Positions 10,992-57,047 of a stretch of 64,000 nt of DNA are shown here, one piece after another. The notes beneath the pieces were generated by a model. That model searched no databases, had not been told where the DNA came from, and saw only the letters and a list, made by a program, of their open reading frames with translations. The position numbers and the translations under genes are program-made. Source of the DNA: Desulfallas thermosapovorans DSM 6562 (GTDB taxonomy: Bacteria > Bacillota > Desulfotomaculia > Desulfotomaculales > Desulfallaceae); NCBI RefSeq assembly GCF_008124625.1, contig NZ_VNHM01000003.1, positions 124,001-188,000 of the forward strand, written 5' to 3'. Position 1 is the stretch's first letter. Every line of letters starts with the position of its first letter.

Positions 10992-11123
10992 AAGCCTGTC
11001 CGCAAGGTCCGCGCTAAATATTGCCAGGCCAGCCGGTTCCGGTGATACTCACGCAGGTTCCGGGTGCTCTCAAGGTTGGAAGGTTTAATCTTTCAACCTT
11101 GAGAATACCCGGCACCAAAGTTA
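10990..11123 (+). repeat. MITE-like palindromic repeat, copy at 11 kb
   Basis: A hairpin at 11056-11116 has the family outer stem (GGTTCCGGGTG / TACCCGGCACC), its own core CTCTCAAG and the inner stem GGTTGGAAG / CTTTCAACC. The left flank (AAGCCTGTCCGCAAGGTCCGCGC) resembles the left end of the 56.9-kb copy. The right end is decayed. It fills the gap between the convergent spoIIR and yabQ. Confidence 0.75.
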
Positions 11124-21439: not shown

Positions 21440-21603
21440 GAGTCTGTTGGAGTAGAAGTATTCTTAGGTGTCAGGTGCTGCCAGGGTTGAAAGAGCAAAA
21501 TCTTTCAACCCTGGCAGCACCCGGCACTTAAGTGGGCACCACAAAGAACAGCCAACGTAGAGATTTCACCAGTGAATCTCGCGCGGACTTTTTAGAACAG
21601 CCC
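21440..21603 (-). repeat. MITE-like palindromic repeat, copy at 21 kb
   Basis: Read on the minus strand this begins GGGGCTGTTCTAAAAAG, continues CCGCGCGAGATTCACT, and closes with a decayed inverted end (CCAACAGACTC). Its order of blocks and length match the 56.9-kb copy. The internal hairpin (21467-21528) has core CTGCCAGG paired with CCTGGCAG, between the shared outer and inner stems. It fills the gap between fin and mfd. Confidence 0.85.
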
Positions 21604-41062: not shown

Positions 41063-41125
41063 GGTGCCGGGTGCCTAACAGGTTGAAAAGTTTTTAATCT
41101 TTCAACCTGTTAGGCACCCGGCACC
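41063..41125 (+). repeat. Palindromic repeat hairpin, copy at 41 kb
   Basis: A perfect 26-bp stem with an 11-nt loop. The outer arms GGTGCCGGGTG / CACCCGGCACC and inner GTTGAAA / TTTCAAC are those of the family; the core is CCTAACAG / CTGTTAGG. Flanking MITE ends are not recognisable, so this may be a hairpin-only or decayed copy. Confidence 0.8.
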
Positions 41126-44699: not shown

Positions 44700-44745
44700 T
44701 ATTACAACCATAATAACCATGTACATGGTTATTATGGTTGTAATA
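44700..44745. repeat. Perfect 46-bp palindrome between convergent genes
   Basis: The sequence from 44700 to 44745 equals its own reverse complement with no loop; the centre is CATGTACATG and the ends are TATTACAACC / GGTTGTAATA. It sits six bases after the glycosyltransferase stop and ten before the ykuK stop. It has no T run, yet could terminate both transcripts as RNA. Confidence 0.85.
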
Positions 44746-50759: not shown

Positions 50760-51062
50760 TAAATAACGCCCCCGGTTTACCCAGGGGCGAAAAATACTTT
50801 CCGCGTTACCACCCTTATTTTGCCTTCTATTGCTTAAAAAAGGCCTCGTTAAGGTACAGGGAACTCAACAACTAATTCCCGATACCCCAAGCCTGGTAAC
50901 GGTGCTTAACCCGGTACGGCCTACTGAAAGCTTTCAGCCGACGGTTCCGGAGCCATGTTCAATACGTTTTCCCCGGTGGGCTCCCACCCTCCCCACTCGC
51001 TGGCCGGTTCTTCCGCATTTACTCCTCTCCATCATGACCTTTATCGACATAATGATTTTAAG
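50760..51062 (-). promoter_or_regulatory. T-box riboswitch (tRNA-Met) leader of metG
   Basis: On the minus strand the T-box sequence AAGGGTGGTAACGCGG lies at about 50801-50816, followed by a terminator stem (CGCCCCTGGG / CCGGGGGCG, 50766-50789) and a T-rich tract. Stem I signatures (GAGGAGTAAATGCGGAAG, GTGGGGAGGGTGGGAGCCC) lie further upstream. The probable specifier is ATG in GAACATGGCTCC, which fits a methionine leader. Uncharged tRNA-Met should favour antitermination. Confidence 0.92.
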
Positions 51063-56715: not shown

Positions 56716-56857
56716 AAACTTCACCTGCAAAAATTTTTTTACTAACGTTTAATTTTATCATACTGTCAATTAACAAACCAGAAGCTGACGGATTTTAATC
56801 CTCAATTACATTTCATTCTCATCATAAAGATACTTGCTGCGGTCAAAATAAAATTAA

Positions 56858-57019
56858 AGAAGCTGTTCGAAAAGACCGCGCGGGATTCACTTTCGCAATC
56901 TCTATATTGGCCGGCCTTTGCGGTGCCCGCGTAGGTGCCGGGTGCTCCCGGGGTTGAAAGAGCAAAAATCTTTCAACCCCGGGAGCACCCGGCACCAAAG
57001 GATATTTTCGAACAGGCTC
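56858..57019 (+). mobile_element. MITE-like element with inverted ends and palindromic core
   Basis: A 162-bp non-coding element. The ends are AGAAGCTGTTCGAAAA and TTTTCGAACAGGCTC, inverted repeats matching at about 13 of 15 positions. Both ends are flanked by TTAA, a possible target duplication. The central hairpin (56934-56996) is a perfect 27-bp stem with 9-nt loop and core CTCCCGGG / CCCGGGAG. It carries no transposase. The 21-kb copy is its inverted, more decayed relative. The gap 56716-57047 is otherwise empty. Confidence 0.85.
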
Positions 57020-57047
57020 TTAAAGAAATGAAAGGAGCGTGCAGGTA

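Follow-up and report, generated by a model that had tools for sequence, protein, structure and literature searches.

Hairpin repeats of Desulfallaceae with a variable, paired core resemble REPINs and are linked to a likely TIRYT-type transposase

Introduction

Among the systems described so far, those closest to the repeats reported here are elements associated with REPs and their transposases. Compensatory changes have already been described in REPINs (PMC3116915), and TIRYTs are transposases that possess terminal inverted repeats instead of REPs (PMC3733652). TnpAREP systems recognise a folded single-stranded REP (PMC8266576). With the TnpAREP proteins of S. maltophilia and Marinomonas, a mismatch in the stem strongly reduces or almost eliminates cleavage, and changes of the stem sequence in blocks matter less (PMC8266576). 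Cleavage in S. maltophilia is also severely affected by a reverse-complemented loop, and E. coli REPs require a mismatch bulge (PMC8266576); thus, the published rules differ between systems. A separate line of work holds that template switching can yield compensatory changes of several bases as well as loop inversions (PMC8794818).

We analysed a window, namely the whole 64-kb stretch of DNA under study, from a 2.96-Mb draft genome (the source genome, G000). The original prediction for this window described four hairpins, in each of which a constant frame encloses a paired core specific to that copy, and stated that no described repeat family fits them. Here we describe the hairpin family, its distribution among related genomes, the pattern of its variation and its link to a Y1/HuH transposase.

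Results

All four predicted hairpins are present in the window (Table 1). Each carries a core of its own on both arms; three of the four cores are perfectly paired and that of the 11056 copy has a single mismatch, exactly as described beforehand. The frame proved near-constant rather than constant, given the one-sided changes at stem positions 4 and 11 and also in the inner motif of the 11056 copy, at positions 1, 5 and 7 of the 21467 copy, and at the last inner base, as a single change, of the 41063 copy. By eye, the arms begin with GGTGCC, and GTAG adjoins the 56934 copy and none of the other three. All four copies are intergenic, extragenic position having been read for these four. Their neighbours, as assigned by Pfam, comprise the convergent spoIIR-like and yabQ-like genes flanking the 11056 copy, an mfd-like gene downstream of the 21467 copy, and genes for a CAP-domain protein and an Orn/Lys/Arg decarboxylase. 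The genes around the 21467 and 41063 copies apparently run in the same direction, and those around the 56934 copy are apparently divergent. The window also contains a T-box leader and a loopless palindrome (Table 1).

Table 1. Positions of the hairpins and other features in the window
Feature	Position	Strand	Description
Hairpin copy	11056-11116	none	core CTCTCAAG on left arm, TTCTCAAG on right arm (as complement); one mismatch
Hairpin copy	21467-21528	none	core CTGCCAGG on both arms; one-sided changes in outer arm
Hairpin copy	41063-41125	none	core CCTAACAG on both arms
Hairpin copy	56934-56996	none	core CTCCCGGG on both arms; perfect 28-bp stem
MITE-like element, ~165 bp	56857-57021	-	encloses the 56934 hairpin; exact ends by eye
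End of MITE-like element	56857-56873		AAGAAGCTGTTCGAAAA
End of MITE-like element	57005-57021		complement of AAGAGCCTGTTCGAAAA
Palindrome	44700-44745		perfect, 23 bp, loopless, TATTACAACCATAATAACCATGT; sequence unrelated to the hairpin family
T-box leader	50780-51044	-	RF00230, 106.5 bits

A covariance model built from 11 hairpin copies found at least 49 candidate places in the source genome at E<=1 and at least 40 at E<0.01. Both counts are lower bounds, as 150 of 2664 first-look candidates were scored; the nine weak places (E >0.01), including six whose sequences were retrieved, were set aside, leaving 40 copies for analysis. Of the 16 genomes analysed from the family Desulfallaceae, seven contain hairpins, and the same seven are the only hairpin genomes among a wider set of 60 searched with stricter filters. 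A scan of genome contigs for the exact frame returned four stretches from a set in which the source genome and its very near relatives are possibly absent, and none of the four was a full hairpin by eye: stretch L028 (Sphingobium) has the outer inverted repeat only, and the remaining three have no matching arm.

How far the core varies differs between genomes. In the source genome, the cores are not mostly identical, with 21 distinct left cores among the 29 copies of 56-64 nt; nor do their two halves mismatch freely, 17 of the 29 being perfectly paired. In Desulfoscipio gibsoniae (G005), by contrast, 32 of the 44 long copies share one identical paired core. Among perfectly paired cores, TTGAAAGG is the most frequent in both genomes, accounting for 5 of 17 in G000 and for 32 of 41 in G005; none of the four window cores has this sequence. 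As TTGAAAGG all but repeats the inner motif GTTGAAAG, the core is not an arbitrary sequence. Short copies (~43-46 nt) have a single unit only. Two further arrangements were seen. The copies L016, L018, L023, L025, L086 and L094 of the source genome are chimeric: one of their arms is interrupted by a segment resembling ACCTTATATGCATGCCTTTCCAGGGCACAAAACGTCATGAAAG, or such a segment stands in its place. In Desulfoscipio sp. strain L (G006), L148, L230 and L231 have a second arm nested within the first (GGTGCCGGGTGTCAGGTGTTGAAAG and the like) and look as if one element had been built symmetrically into another.

The original prediction that the sequence varies while pairing is kept agrees with the pairing statistics. 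In the alignment of 11 copies, 95.4% of cells are paired, against a mean of 88.7% with shuffled partners, and double changes occur at 9 of 28 pairs, against a shuffled mean of 4.0. The core of this set has 19 paired-change and 5 one-sided or unpaired cells, compared with 3 and 17 in the frame (p=4.8e-5). Arm identity and cell counts in whole genomes were taken from the copies of 56-64 nt, namely 29 of 40 in G000, 44 of 46 in G005 and 20 of 22 in G006. The two arms of one G000 copy are 0.904 identical on average, compared with 0.749 for arms of different copies and with a mean of 0.755 and a maximum of 0.792 in 300 shuffles of partners; for the core, the values are 0.886 within and 0.572 between copies. 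The corresponding within-copy and between-copy identities are 0.933 and 0.807 in G006, 0.984 and 0.930 in G005, and 0.994 and 0.939 in G010, where there are 7 copies only and the shuffles reach 0.994.

Paired change is commonest in the core. Counting copies rather than independent events, the core of the 29 long G000 copies has 60 cells in which both arms differ alike and 25 in which they are unlike, against 44 and 54 in the frame (p=0.0006). G006 shows this difference at borderline strength (p=0.055), and G005 does not show it (p=0.54). Per column, the both-alike cells of G000 number 1.2 in the outer arm, 7.5 in the core and 5.2 in the inner motif, and the unlike cells 2.4, 3.1 and 4.7, respectively. 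Thus, paired changes are scarce in the outer arm and numerous in the inner motif as well as the core, and one-sided ones are spread over all parts of the stem. The figures for the inner motif are probably inflated by indels near the loop.

Five related sulfate-reducing bacteria (G007, G008, G010, G011 and G013) carry a transposase gene flanked by the hairpin arm as an inverted repeat. The ends of these genes consist of GGTGCC[A/G]GGTGTTG[A/C]AAG and then GTTG[A/C]AAGTT, with 0-8 bases between. The two ends of the G007 gene are identical over 28 nt, those in G008, G010, G011 and G013 are shorter or imperfect, and no clearly matching ends were seen for the G006 gene. From G010 and G007, 7 and 3 hairpin copies, respectively, were retrieved by place. 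The ends in G011 and G013 have TTGCAAG in place of TTGAAAG; the six hairpins read there (three per genome) all likewise carry TTGCAAG in the core, and two of them still have TTGAAAG as the inner motif. As far as such sequence comparisons reach, hairpins and transposase ends co-diverge.

A cognate transposase was defined by an identity of at least 56% over nearly the whole query, or of 62% in two pieces (G006). By protein search, such a gene is present in 6 of 16 genomes of the family: in 5 of the 7 hairpin genomes versus 1 of the 9 others (Fisher p=0.035). G008 has the cognate gene and no R1 hairpin, and G002 and G015 have transposase gene fragments and no R1 hairpin. All five cognate proteins scanned contain PF01797; the DnaA-like helix-turn-helix PF08299 was matched in four of the five with E-values of 6.8e-6 to 0.0044, all below the curated cut-off. 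In G005, which has the highest copy number, the transposase is represented by two weak fragments only, of 25-26 aa at 4,727,996-4,728,189. The protein search found no cognate transposase in the source genome and only a distant one (39%), so the hairpin copies there look like orphans.

The source genome's own transposase gene (L026) was rejected as the driver of the hairpins, given its ends GGTGCCAGGCACCCAACTTATTAACTTATT. This RAYT-like gene (L026:971-1948, 280 aa) is bounded by inverted GGTGCCAGGCACCCAACTTATTAACTTATT, lies by eye beside a pilin-like gene, and represents a second transposase family with ends of its own; the related genes of G002 and G012 have ends like these. The genomes of the family also contain other transposases with ends of their own, several of which begin with GGGGTCAG. 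We also rejected the idea that the core corresponds to the spacer within the transposase ends: the core lies at the first TTGAAAG repeat, and the spacer of the full-length element follows the first repeat.

Taken together, the hairpins behave like REPINs whose arms would be the terminal inverted repeats of a TIRYT-type transposase. We put at roughly 0.75 the probability that they are REPIN-like non-autonomous elements mobilised by such a transposase, with a core that only needs to pair. In this putative model, each hairpin joins the terminal sequence of a TIRYT-type Y1/HuH transposase to a second, inverted copy of it across a short loop, and the transposase would excise and insert it as a folded single strand. 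The recognised frame would be the outer GGTGCC[A/G]GGTG plus the inner GTTGAAAG, the core between them merely having to pair. Badly paired stems would fail to mobilise; provided that these transposases need a good stem, pairing would be screened at each move and the core sequence left free. Paired novelty could arise if one arm serves as the template for the other, via template switching during replication or via repair of a folded intermediate. After insertion, a copy would decay by one-sided mutation along the whole stem. The source genome, where only a distant transposase is found, would have lost its own and then entered such one-sided decay.

BLAST searches with masked flanks revealed hairpins at corresponding sites in related genomes, and nine same-site sets, hand-picked from the 70 best rows, were aligned. 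The clearest pair is L053 of G005 and L088 of G000. On the left, their flanks match all the way to the hairpin; on the right, the match continues beyond a stretch of ~37 bases that G000 lacks. Between the two hairpins, stem positions 7 and 9 show paired changes, one repeat unit is lost symmetrically, and the differences at position 4 are unpaired. The intergenic region of the 41063 copy also holds hairpins in G005 and G006, in which the core differs on both arms and nearly all of the frame is identical; extra DNA surrounds the G000 copy. The differences of the pair L128/L152 are unpaired. Several same-site pairs are offset by some bases and so do not lie at the same base, which makes re-insertion or replacement by another copy possible. 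From these alignments, a change of the hairpin in place is likely in one case.

These offsets also agree with a reading that needs no correction in place, in which the core variants descend from separate founders and the same-site differences reflect re-insertion or replacement at a preferred site. It would fit the families into which the cores fall by eye (TTGAAAGG, CTCCCRRG and CCTNNCRG) and the frequent location of copies at one spot of a MITE-like flank. We consider it rather unlikely, as L053 and L088 share their flanks yet differ by paired changes and a symmetric shortening, and the origin of any new paired core would still require change on both arms.

The MITE-like element around the 56934 copy has counterparts elsewhere, since similar flanks with TTCGAACAG-type ends recur around a number of hairpin copies, which often lie at one spot inside the flank. 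A search for hairpin-free copies of this element gave seven matches: L268 is the query itself, L270 has a short hairpin, L269 has half a hairpin, and L271-L274 have no hairpin readable with certainty. The shared flanks, including those at 56857-57021, would be expected if the hairpin simply lay within a MITE that another transposase moves via the TTCGAACAG ends, in which case its likeness to transposase ends would be a matter of history. Two observations make this unlikely: other copies have no such flanks by eye, and the hairpin sequence tracks the transposase ends.

Selection on an RNA hairpin (an mRNA 3′ end, a terminator or a regulator) combined with ordinary compensatory mutation would explain the strong covariation and suits the one window copy in four that lies between convergent genes, but it is very improbable, given that the hairpins match no Rfam family at the gathering threshold (the T-box leader being the sole match in the window), that the window copies have no T run 3′ of the stem and lie in differing gene contexts, and that the G000 copies have one-sided changes in every part of the stem. 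Intrinsic terminators in particular were set aside solely because of the missing T run in the window copies. G-T and A-C mismatches number 15 and 12 in 39 copies of G000, 4 and 1 in 45 of G005, and 2 and 6 in 22 of G006; these counts have no bearing on RNA selection because the strands were not oriented by transcript.

Read in one flank orientation, 5 of 19 G005 loops are ATCTTTGAT and 4 of 19 are ATCAAAGAT, the inverse orientation; in G010, the two orientations account for 2 and 1 of 3 loops. Another G005 loop class, GATTTTAATC, is found in 3 of 19 and its inverse in 0 of 19. Both loop orientations would be expected from template switching, and substitution or flipping of the whole hairpin may possibly produce them too. 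Selection on structure and fold-back copying, the two causes put forward in the original prediction, are supported as possible ones. It seems doubtful to us that the copies record palindrome-copying in the full sense, with new cores arising on one arm and being transferred as whole blocks to its partner at the same site, even where the transposase has been lost. If this were true, the family would amount to a naturally occurring assay of bacterial template switching.

Discussion

This study describes a hairpin repeat family of Desulfallaceae and links it to a likely transposase. The dataset separates paired change, most frequent in the core and least in the outer arm, from one-sided decay, which affects the whole stem; this separation bears on how perfect hairpins arise and persist. 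A search of the literature on RAYTs, REPINs and TIRYTs found no title or abstract opening that describes this particular family. The view that no described repeat family fits has nevertheless to be given up: REPIN and TIRYT repeats are described (PMC3116915; PMC3733652), and as compensatory changes in REPINs are already on record, hairpins with a paired core do fit a known kind of repeat. The element type is already known, and the paired change in the core illustrates it unusually clearly.

Three described systems may be compared with the hairpins. Quasipalindrome correction by template switching (PMC8794818) shares with them the homogenisation of arms, multi-base paired changes and loop inversion; it differs in being a mutational process rather than an element family, and its part in the hairpins here is putative. 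In contrast to REPINs, the Desulfallaceae hairpins have no GTAG tag as a family feature, their single arm is not a separate REP palindrome as judged by eye, and they are present, at a length of ~60 nt, in a genome without a cognate transposase. They resemble REPINs in being hairpins of two inverted arms that match the flanks of a Y1 tyrosine transposase, with conserved ends, a freer spacer and compensatory changes (PMC3116915), and in their many dispersed copies, here at least 49 candidate places. With respect to TIRYTs, the ends GGTGCC[A/G]GGTGTTG[A/C]AAG differ from the TIRYT motif GGGGWSAS, which is resembled by the GGGGTCAG ends of other transposases in the same genomes (PMC3733652). In common with TIRYTs and TIRtrons (PMC3733652; TnpAREP subclass 2.1, PMC6006769), the system presented here has repeats that occur as dimers and a Y1 transposase gene with long terminal inverted repeats on either side; the C-terminal DnaA-like helix-turn-helix described for that group is a candidate feature here, its matches lying below the curated cut-off.
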